Part shown: positions 5,494 through 21,860 of the stretch, piece by piece
Numbering within the stretch: the stretch's first letter is position 1
Layout of the letters: every line of letters begins with the position of its first letter
From: a virus
IMG/VR virus record: IMGVR_UViG_3300035698_014172
Coordinates: 1 to 21,860 of that record
Strand: one strand, 5' to 3'
DNA length: 21,860 nt
Translations under genes and position numbers: made by a program
Notes under the pieces: generated by a model
The model's database searches: none
What the model saw: only the letters and a program-made list of their open reading frames with translations
Told to the model about the DNA's origin: nothing

Positions 5494-6834
5494 TTATAAC
5501 CCCAGCTCAAGTCGTAACTCTTCTTCTTCGTCCAGTTCCCCCAACTGTGCGAAATAATCTGCTGTAGTCAGGGACTCGCCGCCTTTGCGCCGGTCATAAA
5601 CATCCGTTACGTCAGGACCATAAGCCGCGTCATAATTACCTTTAACCTCTGCCAGAGCCTCTTTAATTACCGGCCACATAGTGAGGAAATCTTCGTCACC
5701 ACTCCAGGTATCGACGCCAGAACCTGTGCGGTTACGAATCATTTCCTGCAAGGTTACAGCAGCACCAGACTGCGCCCGTATCTCCGTGTTCAGCACTCGC
5801 TGTATAAGCGCGCGCATCTGTGTAGCTTTATCCCCAGGCGCACCTTCAGGTGTCAATACCTCCTGCGTGAACGAAAGCATGCCGCCGAGGTAAGGGGTGT
5901 TTTGCCCGTAGCCAACACCAGGTACTGACGTTATGTTGCCTTCCTCGTCACGAGGTATGTCAGCTAAGAACGCGTCCACTGCGGCCACATCTGCCTGCAC
6001 TCTGGGTATCTGCGATTTTTCCAAATCCTTGCCGTATTTTATGAGTCGCAAATCCAGTTTGTCCGCTGCACGGGCACGCGCTACACGGTTGCCTTTAACA
6101 GCCGCCGAGCGTTCGAGGCGCTGATTGTCCATGTACTTGTCCCACTCAACGTGACCGTCCGGTACTGGCTTGTTGGTGTCTTTGAAGTACGGCTTGCCAT
6201 CACGATGAACCACGTTAACAGGTCCGTTCTCAGGGTTGTTGGTGTCGATCATCCGCATGTCGGTGCCTTTGAGCTTGGCGTTCTTATCCGCCAACTCAGC
6301 TGCGGTAAAGCGGTTTTTAGTAGCTAACTCAGCGGCTTGTTTGCGCGCGTTTATAAGCCCTACTTGCCGCTCATCTGTAGCGCGCTCCGTGTCCAGACGC
6401 TCAGAGGTGCGGAATTCGTTAGCCAGCACAGTGTCGTCCCGCTTGAGGTCTCGCCCTGCCACAGCAGCGGCGGTGTCCATTTGATCTGCGCGCCCTCTGC
6501 CTTGCCCGACCAGGTAGCTACCGTAAGCACCGGTGCCAGCTTTAGCCATAGCACCGAGGCTTTCCAACGGGTTAGATGCTACAAATATGTCGCCAGTTTG
6601 CCGCCCTTCAGACAGGGGGGCATCGCGCATCGCGTCAGCGTACTGTTGTGTAGAGTCCAAAGAACTACGCATGCCGGCGGTACTTTGAGCGGCTTGTGCG
6701 GCTGTCGCGGCCCGCACTTCTGGTGACATAGACGCCGTAGCTCCCTGGCTTATCATGCCAGTACCGCCGGTGTTTGACTGCGACAATATAGCCGCAGTCT
6801 GTTGCTGCATGCGCGCGTACTCTTCAGGTGTCAT
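5494..6834 (-). CDS. Virion / ejection-type structural protein, helical
   Basis: A 446-residue protein beginning MTPEEYARMQQQTAAILSQS, rich in Ala, Gln, Asp and Arg. A short Gly-rich stretch (AKAGTGAYGSYLVGQGRGRAD, about 97-117) precedes a long helical region with dense Arg/Glu/Asp/Lys, probably coiled coil (about 120-270). The C-terminal part ends acidic (ELDEEEELRLELGL). I recognise no catalytic motif. The start overlaps the stop of the upstream gene (TAATG), and GGGGG about 7 bases before the ATG is the only ribosome-site-like sequence. Lying between a Gln-rich virion protein and the 677-residue ejection candidate, in the place where T7 and P22 relatives encode internal proteins, it is inferred to be a virion core or ejection protein. 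Confidence 0.65.
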   Translation of the reverse strand: MTPEEYARMQQQTAAILSQSNTGGTGMISQGATASMSPEVRAATAAQAAQSTAGMRSSLDSTQQYADAMRDAPLSEGRQTGDIFVASNPLESLGAMAKAGTGAYGSYLVGQGRGRADQMDTAAAVAGRDLKRDDTVLANEFRTSERLDTERATDERQVGLINARKQAAELATKNRFTAAELADKNAKLKGTDMRMIDTNNPENGPVNVVHRDGKPYFKDTNKPVPDGHVEWDKYMDNQRLERSAAVKGNRVARARAADKLDLRLIKYGKDLEKSQIPRVQADVAAVDAFLADIPRDEEGNITSVPGVGYGQNTPYLGGMLSFTQEVLTPEGAPGDKATQMRALIQRVLNTEIRAQSGAAVTLQEMIRNRTGSGVDTWSGDEDFLTMWPVIKEALAEVKGNYDAAYGPDVTDVYDRRKGGESLTTADYFAQLGELDEEEELRLELGL

Positions 6835-7869: not shown

Positions 7870-9165
7870 CTAAATTACTGGCGCGTAGCCAGGTGAGGCT
7901 TTGGGGCCTCCACCGGCTGGCGTCGTTAAGTCTGTTCTGTTGTACAGCAGGTTGGTGAACTGATCCAACGCGCCTTGGTAATTGGTGTCCGTATTCGCGT
8001 CACGGTGCGAGGAATAGTAGCTGGGGTCCATATGCTTGCCGCTGGCAAACTGCACCATGTCACCGGCTGACTGGTTCAGCGGGTCGTTAAAGCCCTTGTG
8101 CAGCATGTTCCGGTTCTCCTGCGACAACTGCCCTTCGACAGCCCCGAACGCTTCACGGTTGGTCATGCCGGCGTATACACCAGGGGCGAACTGCCAGTTA
8201 GACGCGTCAGCGCCGCCCGCCATTGGGTTCATAGCTGCCGTGGCTGTCTTCAAGCCGCCCTGATCTGGGTTGTACCAGTCGAAAGCAGTTTTACTGTTGA
8301 ACTCAGTCGGGGCTGGCTTGTCACCACGAACAGCCTGTGCCTGCTGCTGCTGGTTCATGAAGTCGTTCTGTTGGCCTAGCAGGTTGCTGAACTGTGCGTC
8401 GTACAATTCTGGGTTACTCATGCCGCCGTGCGTTTGCTGGCGCTCGAAAGTGGACTCGTAGCCGGCGTCAACAGTGTTGTCGCCGCTACCAAAACGGTTG
8501 TCCCCGTAGTTACCGCCGCCGCCCGCATAAGGTAGTCCGCCGGTGCCGCCAGGGCCAGACGTTCCGTCACCTGGTAGTGTAGGCTGCTCTGCACCAGGCA
8601 GTGGAGTGCCGCGTGCGCCAATCTGTGATGGGTTAAACGGGTCATACGGCGCGCCTACAGCAGGGTCAACGTGTTCGTCGCCGTAAGGGTTACGGAAAGC
8701 GCCCCTGTCCTCTTCTACAAATCCAGACCACTCACCACCTTCGCCCCAAGTTGGGTCCCAGGCTTGCGGGTTCTGGTCAAACGCCTGACCTTCGGCGCTG
8801 GCATTCAATTCTAGTTGTATCTGGTCCCAGTCATCGCGGCCGGCATAGAACTCTTCACCCTCACGTTGTGCGGGGCGCCCGAACTCCTTCATATAGTAAT
8901 CATCCAACTGGGAATTGTTGGCGTCCATCATATATTGCCGCTCTGGGGACGCCATCAGGGTGGCGTCCAGTTCGCTCAATGGCGTCCCAGCGTAGTAATC
9001 AAGACCTTCCTGCTGCACATCGCGGCCTAGTACGCGCCTGTACGCGGCTGCTACGTCCGCTTCGGTAGCCGCACCCCCGCCTGTGGCCGTAGCAGCACCT
9101 GTACCGGAGGCCTCTGCCTCCATTTTCGCTATAGCCGCTGCCATCTGCTCTTCAAAACTAGCCAT
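7870..9165 (-). CDS. Virion-associated protein with tandem DUF4214-like repeats
   Basis: A 431-residue protein started at MASFEEQ (9165), whose ATG overlaps the TAA of the GNAT-like gene (TAATG) with GAGAGAGG about 7 bases upstream; a farther in-frame ATG at 9198 is inside that gene and less likely. Residues about 37-75 (VAAAYRRVLGRDVQQEGLDYYAG, read with the following LSELDATLMASPE) match the DUF4214 pattern 'Y..vLGR..d..Gl.yy.g....s.i..S.E'. Residues about 87-127 (LDDYYMKEFGRPAQREGEEFYAG) repeat it. The rest is Gly/Asp/Asn/Pro-rich and poorly structured until about 250, followed by a Gln-rich helix. DUF4214 occurs in secreted and surface proteins of bacteria. In this late position the protein is inferred to be a virion component; its role is unknown. 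Confidence 0.68.
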   Translation of the reverse strand: MASFEEQMAAAIAKMEAEASGTGAATATGGGAATEADVAAAYRRVLGRDVQQEGLDYYAGTPLSELDATLMASPERQYMMDANNSQLDDYYMKEFGRPAQREGEEFYAGRDDWDQIQLELNASAEGQAFDQNPQAWDPTWGEGGEWSGFVEEDRGAFRNPYGDEHVDPAVGAPYDPFNPSQIGARGTPLPGAEQPTLPGDGTSGPGGTGGLPYAGGGGNYGDNRFGSGDNTVDAGYESTFERQQTHGGMSNPELYDAQFSNLLGQQNDFMNQQQQAQAVRGDKPAPTEFNSKTAFDWYNPDQGGLKTATAAMNPMAGGADASNWQFAPGVYAGMTNREAFGAVEGQLSQENRNMLHKGFNDPLNQSAGDMVQFASGKHMDPSYYSSHRDANTDTNYQGALDQFTNLLYNRTDLTTPAGGGPKASPGYAPVI

Positions 9166-9596
9166 TACGCTGCCTCTCTCCATTCTTTCGACAACCACCG
9201 ACAGCTTTCGCGCGTCATGGTCATCACAATATAATCTATTCCTTCACCCATCGCATGCGGTATCCGTGTCACTTCCGTCATGCCGATATGAAAATTAAAC
9301 TTCAAAGCCTTGGCGTTGGTAGACGGTATCAGGCCGAAAACGCGCTTCCGGTTACGAGTCACGAACGCATGGAACGAGACAGCATCGATGAACCCGTGAC
9401 GGATAGCCATAGGGTTCTGGATTGCCCAGTGTACGTTGCACCCATCCGGTGAGAAACTGTCAAATACGGCAACGGCGGCTATGGTGAGGTCATTGTTGTA
9501 CATGACCATGCCTTCGGAGTCCTCACACGCGATAGTGTGCGTCCGCCGGCGGAACCAGTCCCACTCGTGGGGCATTGCTAAAGTGTGTATTTTCAC
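9165..9596 (-). CDS. GNAT-fold-like protein at the T7 gp13 position
   Basis: A 143-residue protein begun at a GTG (9596) that overlaps the TGA of the upstream gene (GTGA), with GGGGGG 5 bases before it; an ATG at residue 8 (MPHEW) is the alternative. Residues about 70-128, with VFGLIPSTNAKALKFNFHIGM and then GIDYIVMTMTR, match the back half of the GNAT acyltransferase fold: a strand, the Asn-x-x-Ala helix, an 'lGf'-like turn and the final strands. The acetyl-CoA pyrophosphate loop (Q/R-x-x-G-x-G/A) is not seen; its place reads HGFIDAVSFHAF. Size and position, just after the large tail protein, match T7 gp13 (about 138 residues). I infer a virion-assembly or internal protein derived from GNAT, not necessarily an enzyme. 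Confidence 0.7.
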   Translation of the reverse strand: MKIHTLAMPHEWDWFRRRTHTIACEDSEGMVMYNNDLTIAAVAVFDSFSPDGCNVHWAIQNPMAIRHGFIDAVSFHAFVTRNRKRVFGLIPSTNAKALKFNFHIGMTEVTRIPHAMGEGIDYIVMTMTRESCRWLSKEWREAA

Positions 9597-11252: not shown

Positions 11253-11984
11253 TCACGCTCCGTATCCAGTATCGCGGAGGTTGTAGTACGGGTTGATCAG
11301 CGGCACGCCGCCTCTGCTTCTGCCGGCGTTTAGAATCGGGGCGCCAGTGGAACGTCCGGTGCGGGAATTGAAGATGTTCTCAAATTCGATACGCGCGGCT
11401 GCGGAGTCAAACCCTTTGGCCTCCAGCCACTTCACCTTCAGGAATTTCTGCGTCATCAACGGGTCATACAGCACCACGTCACTACCGTTTACTATGGCTT
11501 CGATCGGTGTCGTGTCGGCAAGGGTAGCCCAGTTGCGACTGATGTACTCATAGCGAACCAGCAGCCCGTTGGGAGGGGGCTGGGGGAATAGCTCAAATAG
11601 GCCGGCCTGTATACGGAAGCTGGCGTAGATAGACTGACTAATCAGATCACGCCCGTCCAGGTACGACCATTCCTGCGGCGATAGCGGACCCGCCAACGCC
11701 ACGTTGTTGGTCTTGTCCCAACCAGTCTGGTCGAGCATGTAAGCGAAATCGGTAGGCAGTGCGTAGCTGCCAGTGTCACTGGGTACAACAGTGGTGAATG
11801 ACTCGATGGCGTTCAGCACTTCCCACGGGTGCAGTTCGACAAGCTCCATGCCAGCTACGGTCAGCAGGCCGGTGAGCTGGATGAAGTTATCATCCGTAGA
11901 AGCGACAGGATCAGTTATCGGCGTAAGCCCCACTTCAAGGGCTGTCCGGTTGATGATTACTGTCGCTGTCTCCTGTCGAGCCAT
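11253..11984 (-). CDS. Head-tail adaptor / tail-tube-A-like protein
   Basis: A 243-residue protein. The N-terminal helices (residues 1-25, ETATVIINRTALEVGLTPI) are followed by conserved-looking podophage segments: SYALPTDFAYMLDQTGWDKT, LSPQEWSYLDGRDLI, ELFPQPPPNGLLVRYEYISR and a long C-terminal helix (FLKVKWLEAKGFDSAAARIEF). This layout is familiar from T7 gp11-like and P22 gp4-like connector proteins that bind below the portal ring and join it to the tail. Position agrees: after the capsid block and before the large tail protein. GGAG lies 6 bases before the ATG, and the gene begins 3 bases after the previous stop. Which of the two families it belongs to was not resolved by eye. Confidence 0.75.
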   Translation of the reverse strand: MARQETATVIINRTALEVGLTPITDPVASTDDNFIQLTGLLTVAGMELVELHPWEVLNAIESFTTVVPSDTGSYALPTDFAYMLDQTGWDKTNNVALAGPLSPQEWSYLDGRDLISQSIYASFRIQAGLFELFPQPPPNGLLVRYEYISRNWATLADTTPIEAIVNGSDVVLYDPLMTQKFLKVKWLEAKGFDSAAARIEFENIFNSRTGRSTGAPILNAGRSRGGVPLINPYYNLRDTGYGA

Positions 11985-11987
11985 GCT

Positions 11988-12770
11988 TTACTCCGTTGCT
12001 GGTGTGCGCTTACGTGCTCTGCGCTTTTTAGGCGCCGGCTCTTCCACGGGGGGCGCGTTTTCGCCAGGTTCTTCCACGTCAGGATCGCCGGCAGTTTCAG
12101 CACCGGCTACCTCATTGTAGTTCACCGCGGCAACCTCAGCACCGAACTCTTCCGCTAGTTCAGGATCCTTAGCGGCGTTCATTAAAGCGTTATTTTCAAT
12201 TGCCGGCGAGTAGTTGCCGTCCGCTTTTTCTAAGGCGTCCAAACGCGCAGCCATGCGTGCAATCTGCTCGTCTTTCTCTGCCAGTGCGTTGCCCAGCTTG
12301 GCGCTGTCCGCTGCTGTCAGGAAGCGCCGCGCGTTATCACGCAGCTGGGATATACCCATGAAGCCTTGAGCGTTGACGTCTGTCATGCCAGCCAGCTGCT
12401 CGACCGTAAGCACATGCATACAGCGAAGCTCTGCCGCTTGGCTCTTTGTGACGCCTGTCCACTGCTCCAGCGGGGTGCCTTCACTAGACTGCTGCTCTTC
12501 ACGCGACTTGAAACGCTTGTAGTGCTCAGGGAAGCGGGCCTTGTCCATATTCATCGCAGGTCGGCGGACAATGCTGTCCTTGTTACCTGGCTGGATAATC
12601 TGGATGTACTCGCAGTCGTTGAAGATTGGGCGATTTGCTTCCGCCGTAGCCTCCATGTCCTGGCGCGGGTTGATGAAAAACTTCACCAGCAAAGTGTCGT
12701 CGCCCAAACCGCGAGCGCCGCCGCCTTGCATGGCAGCTTCAGTCAAATTGTAGTCTGCTTGTTCTAACAT
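11988..12770 (-). CDS. Conserved podophage protein with HhH-like segment and basic tail
   Basis: A 260-residue protein. Residues about 27-90 form a beta-rich module (LLVKFFINPRQDMEATAEAN ... FPEHYKRFK) that I recognise as recurrent in marine podophages but without known function. Residues about 104-151 (LTVEQLAGM then MGISQLRDNARRFL) resemble a helix-hairpin-helix element that often contacts DNA. A coiled coil follows (about 158-184), then an acidic Glu/Pro linker and a strongly basic tail (KKRRARKR, 248-255). The combination suggests a protein that touches DNA in or near the capsid or connector; this is inference. Translation probably starts at ATG 12770 with GAGG 8 bases upstream. It is the first recognised gene after the intrinsic terminator at 12927-12952, so its expression depends on read-through or an unseen promoter. 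Confidence 0.72.
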   Translation of the reverse strand: MLEQADYNLTEAAMQGGGARGLGDDTLLVKFFINPRQDMEATAEANRPIFNDCEYIQIIQPGNKDSIVRRPAMNMDKARFPEHYKRFKSREEQQSSEGTPLEQWTGVTKSQAAELRCMHVLTVEQLAGMTDVNAQGFMGISQLRDNARRFLTAADSAKLGNALAEKDEQIARMAARLDALEKADGNYSPAIENNALMNAAKDPELAEEFGAEVAAVNYNEVAGAETAGDPDVEEPGENAPPVEEPAPKKRRARKRTPATE

Positions 12771-12916
12771 ATTGTCAGCCTCGTCATTTTATAAAGCCGG
12801 CGCCCTGTGGGCACCAGTCGGGTAGTTATAGTAACAGAAAAACCCAGCACGCTGGCTAGGGTCAAGTTGATAGTGCGCCTGCGGCAGGTAGAGTAACGCT
12901 TCAATACTTCAAGCAT
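12764..12916 (-). CDS. Possible small membrane-type protein (50 aa)
   Basis: A short frame fills the otherwise empty space between the terminator and the 260-residue gene. The ATG at 12916 has GGAG 6 bases upstream, and the TAG overlaps the next ATG by 7 bases, the tight junction style used across this operon. The predicted product starts MLEVLKRYSTCRRR, has a mildly hydrophobic stretch (INLTLASVLGFSVTITTRLV, about 16-35) and ends with a basic tail containing RRLYKMTR. That pattern suits a small membrane or membrane-interacting peptide. No family is recognised. It could be chance, because the stretch is only 153 bases; in favour are the ribosome site and the coupling. Confidence 0.4.
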   Translation of the reverse strand: MLEVLKRYSTCRRRTINLTLASVLGFSVTITTRLVPTGRRLYKMTRLTIC

Positions 12917-12926
12917 ACGCGGCTCC

Positions 12927-12952
12927 AAAAAAGGGTGCCCCGAAGGGCACCC
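12927..12952 (-). terminator. Intrinsic terminator after the capsid/decoration genes
   Basis: On the minus strand GGGTGCCC-TTCG-GGGCACCC forms a perfect 8-bp stem with a stable TTCG tetraloop, followed at once by six T residues (plus-strand positions 12932-12927). It lies 19 bases after the stop of the decoration-like gene. T7 has a terminator at the equivalent place, after the capsid gene, where it reduces but does not abolish downstream transcription. The same role, boosting capsid over tail transcripts, is inferred here. Confidence 0.9.
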
Positions 12953-12970
12953 AGGCAGGCTGATCAGTAA

Positions 12971-13471
12971 TTAGTTACTGATGTTCGTAACGAACGGGTA
13001 GTTGATCGAAAGCAATGCCTGTCCAGGGGCGGGTGTTGCAATGTCGCTGTAACCAAAGGCAGTGTGACTACAATCGCCAGCTACAACAGCATCGTCAAGT
13101 TCGCCAGGAGTTGCGGTCAGGTACGCCAGTGTGTCGTCTGCAAAACTTGCCAGAACTTCCGCCACTGCCAATCCGCGAATTTGATACCAGCCGTACTCGC
13201 CGGTGACACAGGCTGACATCGCAAACGCAAGGAGTCCTACACCATTGGCAACTGCCAACGTGGTGGCATAGCTACCGTACTCATACGTCACAGACGTGCC
13301 GACAATCGTGGCATCCAACCCTTTCAGGTAGATAAACTCACCATAGCCGTAGTCTGTGGACGCCGTGTCCAAGGCAACAATGGTACGCCCCAGTCTGTTC
13401 TGCAAGGTAGCACTGCTCTCGTCAATCGCTTGACCGCCAAGACTGCCATCTGCTGTTTGAAAATTACTCAT
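12971..13471 (-). CDS. Probable head decoration / minor capsid protein
   Basis: A 166-residue, beta-rich, Gly/Ala/Thr-rich protein directly after the major capsid gene. Segments such as GYGEFIYLKGLDATIVGTSVTY, GEYGWYQIRGLAVAEV and ATPGELDDAVVAGD look like a compact beta-barrel decoration protein; these small proteins typically follow the capsid gene and stabilise the shell. I did not recognise a specific family. AGGAGT lies 8 bases before the ATG. The gene is separated from the capsid gene by 52 bases with a hairpin, and is followed by a strong intrinsic terminator, so capsid and this protein form one transcriptional block, as expected of two high-copy shell components. Confidence 0.7.
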   Translation of the reverse strand: MSNFQTADGSLGGQAIDESSATLQNRLGRTIVALDTASTDYGYGEFIYLKGLDATIVGTSVTYEYGSYATTLAVANGVGLLAFAMSACVTGEYGWYQIRGLAVAEVLASFADDTLAYLTATPGELDDAVVAGDCSHTAFGYSDIATPAPGQALLSINYPFVTNISN

Positions 13472-13502
13472 CGTAACATACTCCTTAGTACATTTGAGTG
13501 TT

Positions 13503-13518
13503 GGGGGCCGAAACCCCC
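13503..13518 (-). other. Short G/C hairpin between capsid and decoration genes
   Basis: GGGGG-TTTCGG-CCCCC on the minus strand begins a few bases after the capsid stop codon. No T-run follows (next bases AACACTC), so it is not a standard intrinsic terminator. It may protect the capsid mRNA 3' end or tune read-through. Confidence 0.55.
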
Positions 13519-13523
13519 GTCAT

Positions 13524-14498
13524 TTACCCGTTGGCGTCGTAACGGCCCTGGAATTGTGAACCAGAAGTCGTCAAGTTACCCGCCCAGGCCAGAATCTGAA
13601 CTTCAGCATCCTGGTTGGTTGAGTACCGCTTATTGGGAGATAAAGGGACCATGTTCCGCGCGCTGTGCGGACGATAGTGGATGTAGTCGCAGTTGAGGAA
13701 GAAGCCAGTACCAGCTGGGCAGCTGCCGCCAATTCCGCCGTCCAGGACCACATCAGCGTCCATGAACTTGAGTGAGGGGAAACCGAGGTTACCGACTTCA
13801 GGCTGTGCAAAGCGTTGAAGCGCCTGCAGGGATGCCATGTAGGTAGCCCAGACAGTGCTGTCGACCATGATCAGGTCAGGACGATCATTACCGCGGCACT
13901 GTGCGGCCCATAGGGCGTTCCAGTAACCTTGGATCTTATCCTTGTCCAAACCATTGACGGCCGTCTGGTTGCTCAACTGAGACTGCCAGAAGGTCCAGGT
14001 AGCGCGATCAATGCCGCCGTAGGTGCCGGTAGTGGGGTCTAGAGGTACGGCGGCGTTCAAACCGTCTACCTGCTTACCGCCAGAGCCAGTACCGTCAGAA
14101 TACAAACCGGTGGACATCAGGTTGGCCAGAGTAGATTCAGCTACCGTGAGGCGGCTTTCCATCAGGTCAATCATTCGTTCCTTGCCGGCGTTCTGGAGCA
14201 TTTCCAGACCGGACATTACAACAGGCACTGCTGCCTGCTTGATATCAAACTCAGCCGCACTGATCACGTCAGACGCACCAGTAGGCAGGATATCGTAGCC
14301 AGAATACCAGCCACTATTGCCGTTTTCGGCAAAGGACAGTTCCTGAAGGATTTTGTGACCGCCGCTGAAACTCTTCTGCTTACCCTTCAAGGACAGCTTT
14401 TTCAGTATGGCGTTGTTGTCGGTGACGTTGTCAGCGATCTTCTTAGACCGTGACTCAATCGTGGTAGCGAGGATATCGCTGATATTTGGGAATGACAT
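13524..14498 (-). CDS. Major capsid protein (HK97-fold podophage type)
   Basis: A 324-residue protein matching a well-known podophage capsid pattern: N-terminal ATTIESRSKKIADNVTDNNA (about 11-30), GGHKILQELSFAENG, SGYDILPTGASDVISAAEFD, AAVPVVMSGLEMLQNAG and a helix with MESRLTVAESTLANLMSTGL. Towards the C-terminus GNDRPDLIMVDSTVWATYMASLQALQRF corresponds to the A-domain region typical of HK97-fold shells. It has no long N-terminal delta domain; scaffolding is supplied by the separate upstream gene. AGGAG lies 8 bases before the ATG. A candidate promoter and structured leader precede it, and a hairpin and terminator bracket the following gene, all consistent with a highly expressed shell protein. 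Recognition is from conserved pattern, not a search. Confidence 0.92.
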   Translation of the reverse strand: MSFPNISDILATTIESRSKKIADNVTDNNAILKKLSLKGKQKSFSGGHKILQELSFAENGNSGWYSGYDILPTGASDVISAAEFDIKQAAVPVVMSGLEMLQNAGKERMIDLMESRLTVAESTLANLMSTGLYSDGTGSGGKQVDGLNAAVPLDPTTGTYGGIDRATWTFWQSQLSNQTAVNGLDKDKIQGYWNALWAAQCRGNDRPDLIMVDSTVWATYMASLQALQRFAQPEVGNLGFPSLKFMDADVVLDGGIGGSCPAGTGFFLNCDYIHYRPHSARNMVPLSPNKRYSTNQDAEVQILAWAGNLTTSGSQFQGRYDANG

Positions 14499-15731: not shown

Positions 15732-16047
15732 GTCTTTCTCTCTCCGTCCAGATGTCATAGATATTTTGGCGTCTTTTAAAACGCTCTTTTGATGAGATTA
15801 CTCCGGTGTAGAAGTCGTCCCGTTCTTTTTCTTTTTTAGCCAGGAACTCAGGCGAAAACTCTGCAGCAGGCACCACGCCATGCTTTTTGCAATGCTCACG
15901 ATAATCTTTCCGCCCGTTAATAACAGTACCATCGATAGGGCTAACAAAAGAGTCTATAGGACCGTGGATAGCCACTCCGTAGCTCTTCGCCGCCGCCGCG
16001 TCAATGGGGATCATCTCGCCGGTGTCTTTGTCCTGCCGCCACCTCAT
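15724..16047 (-). CDS. Small conserved portal-adjacent phage protein
   Basis: A 107-residue protein joined to the portal gene by a 4-base ATGA overlap and to the scaffold gene by an 8-base overlap. The central part, DSFVSPIDGTVINGRKDYREHCKKHG (about 32-57, shown in pieces as SFVSPIDGTVI and GRKDYREHCKKHG), belongs to a pattern seen widely in tailed phages between portal and capsid genes: a 'sPvdG..I..R...reH...hG' layout. The C-terminal third is a highly charged helix (KKEKERDDFYTG, SKERFKRRQN). The family's function is not known to me. The start is fixed by the overlap with the portal stop. Confidence 0.75.
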   Translation of the reverse strand: MRWRQDKDTGEMIPIDAAAAKSYGVAIHGPIDSFVSPIDGTVINGRKDYREHCKKHGVVPAAEFSPEFLAKKEKERDDFYTGVISSKERFKRRQNIYDIWTERERHG

Positions 16048-18194
16048 GAAGGCGCTCCGGTAGGTTTGGCACGGGCGAGCTGCATAGCGTTGTGGTGCGC
16101 CAGCTGCTCTTCAGTGATGTTGTTGTCATGCTGGGTGTCCTCTTCGGCGATAGCGTAAGCGGCCTGGCCCCGCTCAACCTGGAGATCAGCGTCCAACTTG
16201 GCCTGTATGACGCCCATGTCCGCTTCGTAGTCGACACGTATTTTCTCCAGGTCGCCCGCTATCTTGGCGCGCTCTGACTCAGATTTGCCAGCGGCTTGCA
16301 TCTGAGCAAGCTGCATGGAGGTCTGGAACTTGGCTTGCAGGAACTGCATGTCGGACTGCGCCTTCATCTGCATCTTCTGCATTTCGCCCTGCTGCTTCAT
16401 CTGCTCCAGCTTCATGGCGCCGGCTGCTTTGCCGCCGTCTTCCTGCTGCGGCGGAGCGTTCTTAGCCTGCTCGATAGCCTGGTCCATGATGCCTTCCAGG
16501 TAGTCGGCGCCCTTGAATCCTGCCATGCCCCATTTCATCAGCTCCATCAGCATGGGTACGGACCCAGGCATAGCCTTGCCGACTGCCTGTGCGCTCTGCA
16601 GGAAGGTTGCCATTGCCGTGAGGAATTCTGTACGTTCTGACTTCAATTGCGCGTAATCGACCATAGCGATCGATTCAGGCTTGATGTTGACCCGCCAGCT
16701 GATTTCAGGATCTTTCATCAGCTGGATTGCCGGCCCGACCTTGTCCAGGTCCGCTTTAGGCAGGAACTGGGCATTGGACTGTTTGGCGATACTCTCCGGC
16801 GTGAAGTGCTTGGAGACTACTTCGGCCTTGAGGGAGTCAAGGTCGCTGGCGAATCGGGCAAACTCGTCCTGCATAGCTTGAACACGAACTGATCCGAATT
16901 TGGCTTTGAGCTGGTTGGTGCCGTCTGAGGTGTACTGGTCAGTATTCGCACCACGAAGCAAGTCGGACATTCCGGTGATTTGATAGAGTTTCTCGATTGT
17001 TTGGGATTGTATCTCCGCCAGGGTCTTCAGCGTGCTGACGACCTCGTGGACCGGAAACCACGCTACAGAACCCACAATTCCACCTTTTTCGGCAAACATA
17101 GCCCAATTCTGGACCGGAATCATGTCGTTTTCGCCGCCTTCCTTGAATATGCGGCCAATAGCCTCTTCAGAGGCATCATAGGCGCCCACAACACGCACGG
17201 CGTCGGTGATAATGGAGATTCGGGACTGCAACACGTCAATTTCAGTGTACAGGCTCTGCGCCATAGCGTAATCGGCTTTGGGCATAAACAAATTGGTGGT
17301 CAGGTTGGCTGTCAGGGGCTTTGGTGAGGGCCAGAAGTTAGCCAGCTGCAGCGGGTCCGGTTTGGAGTCCAGAATCAGGTCAGCATCCTTCGACCACCAG
17401 AAAACCTTCTTAGTGGCCTTGTGCCAGAACTCCCAGACTTCAGCTTTGTAGGCATTATCGCCCTCGTCAGGGTTGGTAGTGCCGTCATCGTCTGTCGACT
17501 TGGCCTGTTGCTGCCGGTAGTCGAGGGATTCGGCCTGTTTCTTACCGAACCGCTCAGTGGCCTCGTCTTTGTCGAGGAAATTGCGATAGCCGAGCCAGGG
17601 TACTTCTTTCCATATTCTGGCCCAACCCCAGGCGAAGTCCTGCCAGTGGACGTACACGGGGTCGCACTTCTCACTGATAATAGTTTCAGTTTCCGCGACC
17701 TCGCCGGTTTTTGGGTCCAGCTGGGGCTTTTTGCCCTTCTCAAAACTATAGTGGACCCTGGCAACGCCAAGGCCTGGTAGCAGCCGGTCCTGAAGGCACG
17801 CATGCAGCACGGTAGGAATATCGCACCCAGAGGGTAGGGTGTCAGCTTCCAGAATACGTTGGAACATCAGGCCGGCGACCCTGGCGATGTCGTCATCAGG
17901 GTCATTGTGTTCACGGGTAACATCAGCCTTGGGCACCTGCCCGAACATCATGCTCTGCAGGGTGATGATGTTGGTCCAGAATAAATTCAGACGATCGTCG
18001 GGGATGTCTTCACCGGATTCAGGATTGTCGTCGATGAACCGTTTTACGACTTTCATGCCGGTTTTCTGGAACTTGCCTATACGCTTGCCATAGGCACCCA
18101 TTTCCTTCGTCCAGTAATCGTGCCAACCTTTCGGAGTTTTCTCCTTGGGCGCCCTGGACTCTTCAATATCAGTTACATTGCCTGACTCTGCCAT
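16044..18194 (-). CDS. Portal protein (P22-like)
   Basis: A 716-residue protein, close to P22 gp1 in length. The N-terminal part includes WTNIITLQSMMFGQVPKADV and IARVAGLMFQRILEAD, a layout typical of P22-type portals, followed by GLGVARVHYSF, a membrane-free alpha/beta core, and VHWQDFAWGWARIWKEVPW. The last 120 or so residues are a Met/Gln/Lys/Glu-rich, very helical region (MKLEQMKQQGEMQKMQMKA), analogous in place to the P22 C-terminal barrel. Twelve copies would form the ring through which DNA is packaged and ejected. The ATG follows the terminase TAA directly (TAAATG), with AGGAGA in the terminase tail as ribosome site. Assignment is secure as a portal; the P22-like label rests on pattern and length. 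Confidence 0.9.
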   Translation of the reverse strand: MAESGNVTDIEESRAPKEKTPKGWHDYWTKEMGAYGKRIGKFQKTGMKVVKRFIDDNPESGEDIPDDRLNLFWTNIITLQSMMFGQVPKADVTREHNDPDDDIARVAGLMFQRILEADTLPSGCDIPTVLHACLQDRLLPGLGVARVHYSFEKGKKPQLDPKTGEVAETETIISEKCDPVYVHWQDFAWGWARIWKEVPWLGYRNFLDKDEATERFGKKQAESLDYRQQQAKSTDDDGTTNPDEGDNAYKAEVWEFWHKATKKVFWWSKDADLILDSKPDPLQLANFWPSPKPLTANLTTNLFMPKADYAMAQSLYTEIDVLQSRISIITDAVRVVGAYDASEEAIGRIFKEGGENDMIPVQNWAMFAEKGGIVGSVAWFPVHEVVSTLKTLAEIQSQTIEKLYQITGMSDLLRGANTDQYTSDGTNQLKAKFGSVRVQAMQDEFARFASDLDSLKAEVVSKHFTPESIAKQSNAQFLPKADLDKVGPAIQLMKDPEISWRVNIKPESIAMVDYAQLKSERTEFLTAMATFLQSAQAVGKAMPGSVPMLMELMKWGMAGFKGADYLEGIMDQAIEQAKNAPPQQEDGGKAAGAMKLEQMKQQGEMQKMQMKAQSDMQFLQAKFQTSMQLAQMQAAGKSESERAKIAGDLEKIRVDYEADMGVIQAKLDADLQVERGQAAYAIAEEDTQHDNNITEEQLAHHNAMQLARAKPTGAPS

Positions 18195-19658
18195 TTAAAT
18201 TCTCCTGCGTCGGCCGCCGCGGGACCGTCGCTGCTCTCGTTCAGCCCACAGCGGGTTGAGTTGCACTTCAACCGACTTCAAACGCTGTATGGCCTTTTGG
18301 GGGTCAGTAGCGGCCGAATAATTGGGGTTTTGCTGCTGTACGACCAGCGCCAGGTACCTGAAAGCGTCAGATGCGTGGCTAGACCAGTCGTGCAACGGCT
18401 TATTACTGTAGCTGTTGGCTACTTCATCGTAACGTCTCCGGTAGGCCCTGAGAGCTTCTATACCCAGTGTGCAGGCAGCTAGATCGAAGTGACATGATGG
18501 CAGTATAAGGCGTGTGGCGTCAATACCGGCCTGAATGGACAGATGTGGCGTGATTCTAATCTCGAGATCGTCATCTTCAAAACGCTTCAGGAACTGCTCG
18601 ATGGTGGAGCGGCCGGTTTGCAGTGTTTTGGCTCGCGCATCGTGGGGGAGCCAGATGGTGTCGTACTCGTAGGGCTTGTCTTCCAGCATTTCGAAGTAAA
18701 ATTCGAGGGGTTTGGAATCATCCTCCTCGAAATCGATAATAGCGATACCGTCAGGACGTTGCTGCCAGAACCACCACGAGCAGGAATCGGTAAACCCGAG
18801 GTCGCCGGCCACATTGACCTTGAACTCGGGGTCATACGGCACGGTGGTGATCTTACCCTTCTGCTCCGCCAGGTTGATCAAGGAGGCGTAGTAGGTGCCC
18901 AGCACCGCGGCCTCGAAACTACACTCGAATTCCTGCGCGTACTGGTCTTCGGTCTGCAGCTCGCGTAATTCGGCCAGATCGTCAGGGGAGAGCAGGCCTG
19001 ACTCGCTTGCCTTCAGCGTCATGTCGAACCACGTATCTCCCGCGCGGGCCTTTTCCATGATCTTGAAGAATTCGTTTTTTCCTTTGGGAGTGCCGATAAA
19101 TACGACCCAGCCCCTTCGGTCCATCAGCGTTGGGAGTATGACTTCAGCCCATAGATTAGGCCTGCAATCCCCGAACTCGTCCAAAATAGCGCCGTCCAGA
19201 TAAAGTCCGCGGAGAGCATCTGGGTTGTCAGCCCCGTATAGAGTAATCCAAGCCCCGTTAGGCAAAACAACACGCAGCTCGCTCTCGCGAATGTCGACGG
19301 CGAACTCGCGAACCATATCCTTGAGATACATCCACGCAACGTCTTTGGCCTGTCGGAAGAAGGGGGCAACATAGGCATATCTCGCATTGGTTTTAGAGGT
19401 ATATAAAGCGCGATGTACAAGCTCCGCAACGCATGCAACTGTCTTTCCTGCTCGTCGGTGACAGACGAGGGATGCCCAGCGTTGCTGCCGGTTGTGAAAA
19501 GGTAGGAATAGCGGCCGTGGCTCATAAGGCACCTGGATAACATCTGGGCTGAACTCGATGTCGTTGGCAGAGGGGGTGTCGTCGAATATGCGCTCGTCAG
19601 GCTCATAGTCCCAGTTCTTGAATAGCGGCTCTTCTAGCTGGTGGGCTAAGGCGGCCAT
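18195..19658 (-). CDS. terL: Terminase large subunit
   Basis: A 487-residue packaging motor protein. The ATPase domain shows the Walker A motif CHRRAGKT (66-73), Walker B AILDEFGD (157-164) with catalytic Glu in the DE pair, and the coupling motif GTPKG (189-193). The nuclease domain shows GDLGFTDS (285-292), LPHDA (337-341) and SHASDAFRY (427-435), which supply acidic metal ligands. The C-terminus is strongly basic (RRSRGGRRRRI), perhaps a DNA or portal contact. The ATG shares its A with the stop of the small subunit (TGATG), and the stop is followed immediately by the portal ATG. Length and motif order are complete, with no sign of truncation. The cutting strategy (pac or cos) cannot be read from this sequence. 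Confidence 0.96.
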   Translation of the reverse strand: MAALAHQLEEPLFKNWDYEPDERIFDDTPSANDIEFSPDVIQVPYEPRPLFLPFHNRQQRWASLVCHRRAGKTVACVAELVHRALYTSKTNARYAYVAPFFRQAKDVAWMYLKDMVREFAVDIRESELRVVLPNGAWITLYGADNPDALRGLYLDGAILDEFGDCRPNLWAEVILPTLMDRRGWVVFIGTPKGKNEFFKIMEKARAGDTWFDMTLKASESGLLSPDDLAELRELQTEDQYAQEFECSFEAAVLGTYYASLINLAEQKGKITTVPYDPEFKVNVAGDLGFTDSCSWWFWQQRPDGIAIIDFEEDDSKPLEFYFEMLEDKPYEYDTIWLPHDARAKTLQTGRSTIEQFLKRFEDDDLEIRITPHLSIQAGIDATRLILPSCHFDLAACTLGIEALRAYRRRYDEVANSYSNKPLHDWSSHASDAFRYLALVVQQQNPNYSAATDPQKAIQRLKSVEVQLNPLWAEREQRRSRGGRRRRI

Positions 19659-20002
19659 CAGGTCAGGTCCTCGTATTCACCCTCGATCGGTTCGCCGACA
19701 TCGCCATCCAGTGCGGCGTTTCTTTGGAGGGAGAGTGCTATTTTAACCTCGCCGGAGTGCTTGTGCTGTACGGGTTTTGGTGCCATCGCGGTGAACATGC
19801 GGTAAAAATCGGTGGGGTTTTCGTCCGCCCATTCTTTGAGGTGTTCTTGTCCGCCCAGGCTTTCATACGCCTCGCCGAACTCACCATGTATGGAATGCTG
19901 CTTGTCGAGCTGCTGACGTATGGCAGACCGCACGGCAGGAGCCAGTTGTAGTGGCGTGCCAAGCTGCAAGCGGGGGAATCTTATTTTTGGTGATTCATCC
20001 AT
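19658..20002 (-). CDS. terS: Terminase small subunit (likely)
   Basis: A 114-residue protein immediately before the large terminase and coupled to it by TGATG. The segment HGEFGEAYESLGGQEHLKEWADENPTDFYRMFTAM (about 40-74, seen as LGGQEHLKEWADENP and FYRMF) is a pattern I associate with proteins preceding large terminases in podophages. It would bind the packaging start and feed DNA to the motor. I begin it at MDESPKIRF (20002). The frame stays open upstream to 20422, but that stretch crosses the repeat region and has no protein-like character. There is no good ribosome site before 20002; instead an extended -10 lies such that transcription could begin on the ATG itself. Role is inferred mostly from position. 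Confidence 0.72.
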   Translation of the reverse strand: MDESPKIRFPRLQLGTPLQLAPAVRSAIRQQLDKQHSIHGEFGEAYESLGGQEHLKEWADENPTDFYRMFTAMAPKPVQHKHSGEVKIALSLQRNAALDGDVGEPIEGEYEDLT

Positions 20003-20008
20003 GTACGC

Positions 20009-20014
20009 AGTATA
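20009..20014 (-). promoter_or_regulatory. Candidate extended -10 promoter for terS
   Basis: Minus strand TGCTATACT carries an extended TGn and a TATACT hexamer (5 of 6 to consensus). Six bases separate it from the terS ATG, so the expected start point is the A of the ATG, implying leaderless mRNA. No convincing -35 was found. Confidence 0.35.
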
Positions 20015-20090
20015 GCAGCCCGCTCCCTGAAAACACCAAATTTTTGCCCACATGCCATTTTGAGAAAAATGTGGAGATGGTAGGGGATGA

Positions 20091-20096
20091 ATTATA
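20091..20096 (-). promoter_or_regulatory. Candidate -10 box for the leftward late operon
   Basis: A perfect TATAAT on the minus strand lies about 90 bases before terS. The -35 region is weak (CTTCAA at 16-base spacing). The resulting leader would carry the CCACAT/ATGTGG inverted repeat. Confidence 0.35.
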
Positions 20097-20124
20097 AGAC
20101 AATCAATTAAAATTGAAGGCGGGG

Positions 20125-20245
20125 GCCTGTATTTTTGTACAGTATTAAATAGGACCCGAATTAGAATAGGCAAGGGCGCCGCCTTGCCTCTTTTAGCTGG
20201 CGCGCCTGTAGTGAATTGATACAGGCAAGGGCGCTGGCCTGTATC
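20125..20245. repeat. GCCTGTA repeat family with hairpins
   Basis: GCCTGTA occurs at 20125, 20204 and 20237 and inverted (TACAGGC) at 20220. The pair GATACAGGC/GCCTGTATC (20218-20245) is a perfect 9-bp stem with a 10-base loop. A second stem, AGGCAAGG/CCTTGCCT (20168-20189), is followed on the plus strand by CTTTTAG and could be a weak rightward terminator. A 14-bp direct repeat AGGCAAGGGCGCYG (20168-20181 and 20223-20236, one mismatch) links the two hairpins. Function is unknown; binding sites for a replication or transcription protein are plausible. Confidence 0.7.
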
Positions 20246-20293
20246 GTTAGTGCACTGGTAGCCGTGCCCGCGTCGCCAGGCTGGGCGGTCGGC

Positions 20294-20607
20294 TGTTACA
20301 GCCCCATTCAGACCGTTACACGCTGTAACGCGCGCGCTTCGGGGCTTGTAACAGTTTACGGCCTTGTAACAGTTTTTTCCGCCAAACACGCAGCATATAT
20401 AAAACACGCGATATACCCTCAAATAAACCCCAGTTAACCTAATAATAAAATATTATGGTAATAACAATAATAAACCGTAACATTGTTACAAGCCGCGCCA
20501 GATGGCGTTACACGGCCGTTACAGCCGTTACAGATTTGTAACGCGTCGTCTTTTTCTACTGTTACAGTTTTTAAGGTGTTGCATTTTTATACAAGCTAGT
20601 GTTACAC
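20294..20607. repeat. Iteron-like YGTWACR array with A+T-rich core (candidate origin)
   Basis: Thirteen copies of YGTWACR lie in about 314 bases, starting at 20294, 20314, 20324, 20347, 20365, 20476, 20484, 20506, 20517, 20526, 20537, 20560 and 20600. Twelve contain GTTACA or its complement exactly. They form a left cluster of five and a right cluster of eight around an A+T-rich stretch (about 20390-20475, with AATAATAAAATATTATGG). The right cluster has a 9-bp tandem repeat CCGTTACAG at 20516-20533, and neighbours there are 9-11 bases apart. Iterons beside an unwinding element are the layout of many phage and plasmid origins; an operator array is the alternative. The next gene resembles a sliding clamp, which favours a replication role. 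Confidence 0.75.
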
Positions 20608-20615
20608 TCGCGTAT

Positions 20616-20629
20616 CGGTCAATTGACCG
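20616..20629. promoter_or_regulatory. Perfect 14-bp palindrome upstream of the clamp-like gene
   Basis: CGGTCAATTGACCG is a perfect palindrome 45 bases before the clamp-like ATG and just after the last YGTWACR repeat. Its symmetry and place suit an operator for a dimeric regulator. The rightward promoter was not found with confidence; TATACA at 20588-20593 is a possible -10 without a matching -35. Confidence 0.5.
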
Positions 20630-20674
20630 TGTTTCGAACCACTAAACGTGAATCAACCTAAAGGAATTAACATC

Positions 20675-21202
20675 ATGAAAAACATCACCCTACCCGCTTC
20701 ACTAATCCGCGCTGCGATGGCCTGCCAGTCAAAGAACGACATTCGCTACTACCTCTGTGGGATCCTACTCGCCAGCTCCGGCGACGTAGTTGCTACCGAC
20801 GGCAACATCCTTTTCAAAGGCCACAACGCTGAGCTGAGCCAGACCTCAAACGCAGACACTATCATCAAGATAGACGGCACGGTCCCGATCAGCGCAAAGA
20901 CAATCGCGTTTGACTTCGCCAGTACTATAGCCACAACCGACAAGGGCAAGCCGCTAGCCTTTAAAGTGGTAGAAGCCAAATACCCCGACTACCAGCAAGT
21001 GATACCTGACACCACCAACCGCACGGCAGGCCCCGACCCGATCAAGCTGGATTCCAGCTTTTTTGCCAAGGCTGCGAAAGCGACCGCTGGCGCGCCCTTC
21101 CTGCTTAACATAGGTGCGCCCGGCGACCCTGTAGTCCTCACCTACGCGGGCGTAGTTGAGGCGCTCGCAGACTCACTGATCGTGATCATGCCTATGCGCT
21201 AG
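20675..21202 (+). CDS. Reduced beta-sliding-clamp-like protein
   Basis: A 175-residue protein from ATG 20675, chosen because AAAGGA lies 9 bases upstream; a GTG at 20648 would extend it by nine residues without a ribosome site. It shows bacterial DnaN hallmarks in the right order: KNDIRYYLCGILLASSGDVVATDG (about 20-43, with ATDG at 40-43), the linker-like YPDYQQVIP (103-111), and C-terminal IMPMR (171-175), the same ending region as E. coli DnaN (VMPMRL). DnaN is about 366 residues with three similar domains; this has room for only about one and a half to two, and the last is shortened. It would tether a DNA polymerase or other factor to DNA. The placement beside the repeat array supports a replication role. 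The homology is by eye. Confidence 0.65.
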   Translation: MKNITLPASLIRAAMACQSKNDIRYYLCGILLASSGDVVATDGNILFKGHNAELSQTSNADTIIKIDGTVPISAKTIAFDFASTIATTDKGKPLAFKVVEAKYPDYQQVIPDTTNRTAGPDPIKLDSSFFAKAAKATAGAPFLLNIGAPGDPVVLTYAGVVEALADSLIVIMPMR

Positions 21203-21250
21203 CGGTAGCCCTTAACTCTCACAACCAATCAACGAACGGGAAGCGTCAAC

Positions 21251-21316
21251 ATGGAATTTGCAAAACTGGTCAACGAAGAACTGGCAAAATTGATCGTTAT
21301 AGGAGCGACCGCGTAA
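21251..21316 (+). CDS. 21-residue leader ORF
   Basis: ATG 21251 to TAA 21316 encodes MEFAKLVNEELAKLIVIGATA, a short amphipathic helix-like peptide. Its TAA overlaps the ATG of the next gene (TAATG), and that gene's AGGAG lies within its coding sequence, so translation of the two is probably coupled. A GGGAAG 7 bases upstream is a weak ribosome site. It may be a true micropeptide or just a coupling leader. Confidence 0.45.
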   Translation: MEFAKLVNEELAKLIVIGATA

Positions 21317-21663
21317 TGACATATACAACCATTAAGGTGCTGGCCAGTGAATTGCAGGCCAGCGAAAAGGGTATTGCCATACCTGAACCATATCGCGCCG
21401 TTTTGTGCCTCTGGCGCGACGGTATCGAATCCGGCCGCGTCACAATACGTGTTGAACGATCCATTACCCGCGATGGCGTCGCCAGTTGGTATCCGACCGG
21501 CGGCGTGTGGTATCTGTCCACACTGCTAGGCGACGACGAGGTCGCCGACGGTATCAGTATTGACTACGGTCAAGGTTGGCAAGTTGATACCGGCTTGCGC
21601 GCTGCAATATTCGAAGCCGCAAAGCATTGCGCGGATAACTTTATCAATGGCGGTGAATCATGA
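21316..21663 (+). CDS. Unknown protein, rightward early cluster
   Basis: A 115-residue protein of no family I recognise. It starts MTYTTIKVLASELQ, has a strand-rich middle (GRVTIRVERSITRDGVASWY, GGVWYLSTLLGDDEVADGI) and a C-terminal helix (LRAAIFEAAKHCADNFINGG). The start is set by the TAATG overlap with the 21-residue ORF and an AGGAG 10 bases upstream. Its stop overlaps the next small ORF by ATGA. The tight coupling shows it belongs to the same operon as the clamp-like gene's downstream cluster. No catalytic motif is visible. Confidence 0.75.
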   Translation: MTYTTIKVLASELQASEKGIAIPEPYRAVLCLWRDGIESGRVTIRVERSITRDGVASWYPTGGVWYLSTLLGDDEVADGISIDYGQGWQVDTGLRAAIFEAAKHCADNFINGGES

Positions 21664-21725
21664 TCTGCCAATTGCTAGCTATCGTGCTAATCGGCGCGAC
21701 CTATAACCTTTGGCGTACGCTATGA
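21660..21725 (+). CDS. 21-residue single-span membrane peptide
   Basis: ATG 21660 overlaps the preceding stop (ATGA) and the frame ends in TGA at 21725, which again overlaps the next ATG. The peptide (MICQLLAIVLIGATYNLWRTL) is almost entirely a hydrophobic segment with one Arg near the end. Double stop-start overlap on both sides favours a real coding unit. No function can be assigned. Confidence 0.5.
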   Translation: MICQLLAIVLIGATYNLWRTL

Positions 21726-21860
21726 AAAATCTAGGCTATGTATTATGGCAAGGCCGCTCAAGGCTTGAGAATTCGCCAATCGCCGCTATTGCTACCCTAA
21801 GTACTAGCAATAGAAAGACTGGCGACATGGTGCAAGTGTGGATCATCGCGACCGATAGCC
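21722..21860 (+). CDS. Conserved phage protein, partial (runs off window)
   Basis: From ATG 21722, in an ATGA overlap with the membrane peptide, the frame is open to the window end (46 residues). The visible part (YVLWQGRSRLENSPIAAIAT ... NRKTGDMVQVWII) matches a pattern I recall from small early-region phage proteins, 'QG.S...g.PI..I.T...N.KTG.M.q.wI'. Their function is unknown to me. The C-terminus lies outside the window. Confidence 0.65.
   Translation, partial: MKNLGYVLWQGRSRLENSPIAAIATLSTSNRKTGDMVQVWIIATDS

Follow-up and report, generated by a model that had tools for sequence, protein, structure and literature searches.

A two-sided array of short repeats around an A+T-rich core as the probable replication origin of an uncultivated phage

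Introduction

In iteron plasmid origins (RepA, TrfA, pi), the iterons are typically 17-22 bases long, direct and placed on one side, often together with DnaA boxes, and iteron-like arrays also serve as plasmid centromeres. Phage P4 has two separate sites, ori and crr, whose type I iterons carry a GGTGAACA-like word and are bound by the alpha primase-helicase; these short iterons, direct and inverted, are recognised by the C-terminal DNA-binding domain of the enzyme. Among the closest described systems are those of the phage-inducible islands: the C-terminal domain of SaPI Rep recognises iterons downstream of the rep gene (PMC7581432), and the origins of Gram-negative PICIs always contain two iteron sets around an A+T-rich region, and a PICI pri-rep-ori unit replicates in E. 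coli (PMC6092414).

Here we analyse a virus record from IMG/VR, 21,860 bases long (the whole stretch is called the window), which is read as a fragment because its ends fall inside genes. An earlier note on this DNA had proposed that a repeat array near its right end is an iteron origin with an unwinding element. We consider the array most likely to be an origin, since the same layout, built of other words, recurs in relatives and, in many phages that are not related, immediately follows primase-helicase genes.

Results

The array and its surroundings

The left 20 kb of the window is a leftward virion block, which contains fibre, tail, capsid, portal and terminase genes. It is separated from a rightward module by a gene-free gap of 672 bases (20003-20674), in which the array sits. 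The features used below are the following:

13524-14498, minus strand: capsid gene (phrog_9953, E 2e-109)
16044-18194, minus strand: portal gene (phrog_12082)
18195-19658, minus strand: terminase large subunit gene
19658-20002, minus strand: terminase small-subunit-like gene (in relatives, tblastn gives weak matches of 29-38% immediately upstream of TerL)
20168-20189, no strand: terminator-like hairpin with a T-rich tail, left of the array
20294-20371, no strand: left iteron set, five copies (20294, 20314, 20324, 20347, 20365)
20372-20475, no strand: A+T-rich core, 69% A+T, candidate DNA unwinding element
20476-20606, no strand: right iteron set, eight copies (20476, 20484, 20506, 20517, 20526, 20537, 20560, 20600)
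20675-21202, plus strand: sliding-clamp-like (DNA polymerase III beta-like) gene, the first of the rightward module

The array comprises 13 matches to YGTWACR, as the earlier note had counted, and ends at 20606, one base before the end given there. Twelve exact GTTACA/TGTAAC hexamers are present, also as claimed. Only nine further YGTWACR matches occur in the other 21.5 kb, so that 0.13 would be expected in 313 bases; the motif is thus not frequent elsewhere and the "well under one" foreseen by chance stands (Poisson P ~5e-22, for a motif picked post hoc). The 22 matches of the whole window exceed those of 100/100 dinucleotide shuffles (mean 10.4). The proposed split into five left and eight right copies around an A+T-rich stretch was found in both its parts, and of all 90-mers in the window the one richest in A+T (20395-20484, 74% against a window mean of 44%) overlaps the core. 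In the left set, 20314-20330 (CGTTACAcgcTGTAACG) is an inverted pair, and TGTAACAG is the sequence of the two core-proximal copies (the TGTAAC reading); the right set, which contains CGTTACAgattTGTAACG at 20526-20543, is mostly GTTACA and therefore inverted relative to those two copies. The copy-to-copy distances are, from left to right, 20, 10, 23, 18, (111), 8, 22, 11, 9, 11, 23 and 40. As just four of them are 9-11 bases, the idea that such spacings would place bound proteins on one face of the helix holds for part of the array only.

The GC skew had been expected to turn at this place. Its sign does change near 20.3 kb, from slightly positive on the left to negative on the right. This is the reverse of what a classical bidirectional origin shows, divergent transcription in a fragmentary record confounds the signal, and the skew gives no support. 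A 36-nt hairpin-forming element (GGCAAGGGCGC...) occurs at 20168-20248 in two diverged copies (72%), the first being the terminator-like one and the second lying at 20213-20248.

Support for the clamp-like gene noted beside the array comes from a match to phrog_947 (processivity factor, E 6e-8) and from tblastn matches annotated as DNA polymerase III beta. It also matches phrog_3007, a family labelled RusA-like resolvase; the members of this family and the 20675-21202 protein look like sliding clamps, and the label is probably an error. The small-terminase-like gene had no family match, and the region 19600-21860 had no DNA similarity to named phages. Single-protein queries against IMG/VR with the clamp and the terminase found no relatives, and the capsid query worked; the clamp gene was sought in 31 relative records and found in none. 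Among the 20 window proteins searched, all from a fragment, none matched an initiator family.

In its multiple short iterons, arranged as two sets around an A+T-rich stretch, the array is like the SaPI/PICI pri-rep-ori units, and elsewhere among phages this word forms arrays behind genes for VapE helicases, which are related to the island initiator of structure 7pds. Unlike those units, it lies in the divergent gap between terminase and clamp genes and not directly behind a helicase gene, its word is GTTACA/TGTAAC, and it belongs to a phage with virion genes of its own, in a contig where no initiator is seen. Because it is not directly downstream of a rep helicase gene, we do not file it as a SaPI/PICI origin, and suggest only that it would work like one. 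With P4 it shares short direct and inverted iterons, although one array is seen in the window instead of two sites, and with another word. As in the iteron plasmids, the iterons adjoin an A+T-rich candidate unwinding element, but they are 7-base words, on both sides and inverted, and the window contains no perfect DnaA box.

Arrays behind primase-helicase genes

The helicases considered here are self-loading primase-helicases of the SF3 type (VapE, D5 or DUF5906) or of the AAA_25/RepA-like type. In named phages that carry helicases of these kinds, the gene is immediately followed by an array in 7/8, with a different word each time, for instance AGGTGAC in Escherichia phage 606R2, GGTAAC in Streptococcus phage Javan385 and GTCAAC in Paenibacillus phage Pd_22F. 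Escherichia phage rolling (L123) has two CGGGAC(A) arrays, one of 14 copies between tail genes (8265-8532) and one of seven directly behind the helicase/primase gene (AAA_25; 25377-25478), a disposition reminiscent of the P4-type two-site origin.

These phages bear on the possibility that the array is a site where packaging starts (pac or cosB-like) and to which the small subunit of terminase binds. In the window the array does adjoin the TerS-like gene and, among the matches listed, Terminase_2 was matched by seven ORFs close to IMG/VR arrays. In the named phages, however, the arrays follow the helicase and lie at least 2.7 kb from terS (phiSa2wa of Staphylococcus, L246: array 6461-6718, terS at 9427; 606R2, L249: helicase gene 11833-14094, array 14097-14350, terS at 17072), and the identity of the word follows the helicase C-terminus (see below), which makes a packaging role improbable.

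A VapE alignment query yielded 80 IMG/VR loci, of which 77 had a readable stop codon and 350 bases around and behind it. At least six copies of one hexamer were present in the 350 bases behind the VapE stop codon in 65/77, compared with 1/228 downstream and 1/206 upstream control segments. The commonest word was GTTACA, whose share is inflated because the query alignment held helicases found through GTTACA arrays; GTCAAC, GTAGAC, GTATAC, GTGAAC and GAAACA were also found, and with words so varied this seeding does not inflate the overall rate. The window array, which combines the anatomy of PICI origins with the commonest word of this VapE-linked class, is read on these grounds as the origin of the phage.

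IMG/VR was also scanned for three close GTTACA words, and the figures that follow are among the matches listed. The 75 dense arrays comprised 25 that were set aside as coding repeats and 50 non-coding ones, many of which surround an A+T-rich core. Such coding repeats, rich in GTTACAGGTGAT-like units (L157, L170, L184, L186 and others) and apparently belonging to fibre-like proteins, resemble the array closely enough to be picked up by simple motif scans. Ten of the larger genes beside the arrays were identified one by one: the 3' end at the array belongs to a VapE gene in L161, L198, L206 and L217, to a D5/DUF5906 gene in L201 and to a PrimPol-DUF3987 gene in L160; DUF5906 genes in L131 and L164 have their 5' end towards the array; and the arrays of L228 and L239 follow a large terminase gene, not a helicase gene.

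The earlier note had cautioned that a regulator array is possible, that is, a phage regulator would bind the repeats as operators and so govern transcription of the virion and early units, which diverge here. The position in a divergent intergenic region would suit this, as would the near-palindromic 7-mer, of the kind bound by dimeric regulators. We regard it as unlikely, since a search of 19900-21400 for promoters of the sigma-70 type gave zero matches, the same word forms arrays behind helicase 3' ends elsewhere and not at promoters, and an operator has no need for an A+T-rich core with inverted iteron sets. The comparative evidence (relatives, helicase-linked arrays and the PICI layout) favours the iteron origin with an unwinding element, as first proposed. 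The outermost copies may have a secondary regulatory role.

The same design occurs with another helicase class in L086 (13423-14962), where an AGGTGCG array of eight copies and a 283-aa protein, ParB-like by eye, lie behind a Prim-Pol/AAA_25 helicase gene. That protein, and the use of iteron-like arrays as centromeres in plasmids, would fit a partition array of a plasmid-like prophage. For the window this seems very improbable: no partition gene was recognised there, the A+T core with inverted sets better fits an origin, and most array loci are not tied to partition genes.

Word identity and the helicase C-terminal domain

Words and proteins were compared in 58 non-redundant VapE cases. Word similarity tracks the identity of the C-terminal domain when the helicase core and the N-terminus are controlled for, a modest effect (partial rank r 0.25, Mantel p 0.0005), to which the helicase core adds nothing (partial r 0.04). 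The C-terminal domain is predicted to be a winged helix (pLDDT 84), and its best solved match is PriRep1 with dsDNA (7pds; Z 13.3, 114 residues aligned, rmsd 3.3). The full VapE query matches the same entry, the staphylococcal island initiator PriRep1, by sequence (E 1e-77). In the literature searched, no paper on iterons of phage VapE or on the Sfi21 origin was found, and the phage-wide pattern of arrays may have been described before.

Arrays at the same place in capsid relatives

The capsid protein query gave 80 IMG/VR loci at ~69-80% identity. The exact YGTWACR array was present in none of them, so the expectation that it is kept in relatives fails as to the word; the architecture and the place are kept in several, where an array of another word lies upstream of the terminase genes:

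L014, 222-393: words GGTAACAGGGTAACA / TGTTACCGCGTTACC, upstream of terminase, judged by eye
L018, 911-1260: word TGTAAGT, upstream of terminase, judged by eye
L099, 252-462: judged by eye (L040 and L099 are one virus)
L097, 19418-19688: judged by eye
G010: word GTAAGCA, upstream of terminase
G011: words AGGTAACTAAAGGTAACT / AGTTACCTTTAGTTACC, upstream of terminase
G012: words as in G011, AGGTAACTAAAGGTAACT / AGTTACCTTTAGTTACC, array split at a poly-T in the core, judged by eye
L061: word AGATTACA, upstream of terminase

A structured detector, which requires an A+T core with a tandem word before it and the inverse of that tandem word after it, was run on 1.78 Mb comprising the window, the capsid relatives and three named phage stretches. 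It matched only the window, L040/L099, L061 and L097, in all of them upstream of the terminase genes, and gave zero matches on shuffles. A simple k-mer cluster scan matched 19/61 control segments (~30%), and for this reason we rely only on the structured detector and on the 350-base VapE test with its matched controls. With the looser k-mer scanner, no clear array was seen there in a sizeable share of the capsid relatives whose upstream sequence was long enough.

G011 and G012 have the gene order of the window, namely terminase module, array and divergent early genes, and encode a DUF5906/RepB-primase protein ~9-11 kb further on the early side. In G010 a VapE helicase lies ~1 kb from the array. 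The arrays of G010-G012 are not directly behind the helicase gene. The 38-kb record of G012 (L100/L101) starts and ends in poly-T within the A+T core of its array, so the assembly broke there. In L014, a 75-aa C-terminal piece that precedes the array was considered as a helicase and dropped, as it had no family or phage match.

Discussion

The origin function of the array is strongly suggested by these comparisons. We put at roughly 0.8 the probability that it is the iteron replication origin of this phage and would be opened by a phage-encoded self-loading primase-helicase. As there is no initiator gene in the 21.86-kb contig, the link to a helicase is made by analogy; we infer that such a helicase is encoded by the phage to the right of the contig, and that this protein would bind these words, with replication starting at the array. 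The candidate initiator, of one of the SF3 or AAA_25/RepA-like types named above, would use its C-terminal winged-helix domain to bind the short iterons of the left and right sets, and would assemble as two oppositely oriented rings. These rings would melt the A+T core between the iteron sets, divergent forks would start from the melted core, and the adjoining clamp gene would serve the replisome.

More tentatively, at somewhat below even odds, self-loading phage primase-helicases and their origin iterons may form a rapidly diversifying recognition pair. The C-terminal winged helix would set the word (GTTACA, GTCAAC, GTAGAC, GTATAC, GGTGAC, TGCAAC and others), and in some lineages, this one included, the origin would have left the helicase gene for the place where virion and early genes meet. 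If the winged helix sets the word, the origin word might be predictable from the protein.

Few phage origins have been mapped. An array signature that would mark the origin in uncultivated phages, with a word that varies together with one initiator domain, opens origin recognition to tests in many genomes, and the pairing of word and domain could help to match origins to helicases and to separate co-infecting phages and satellites by the compatibility of their origins.
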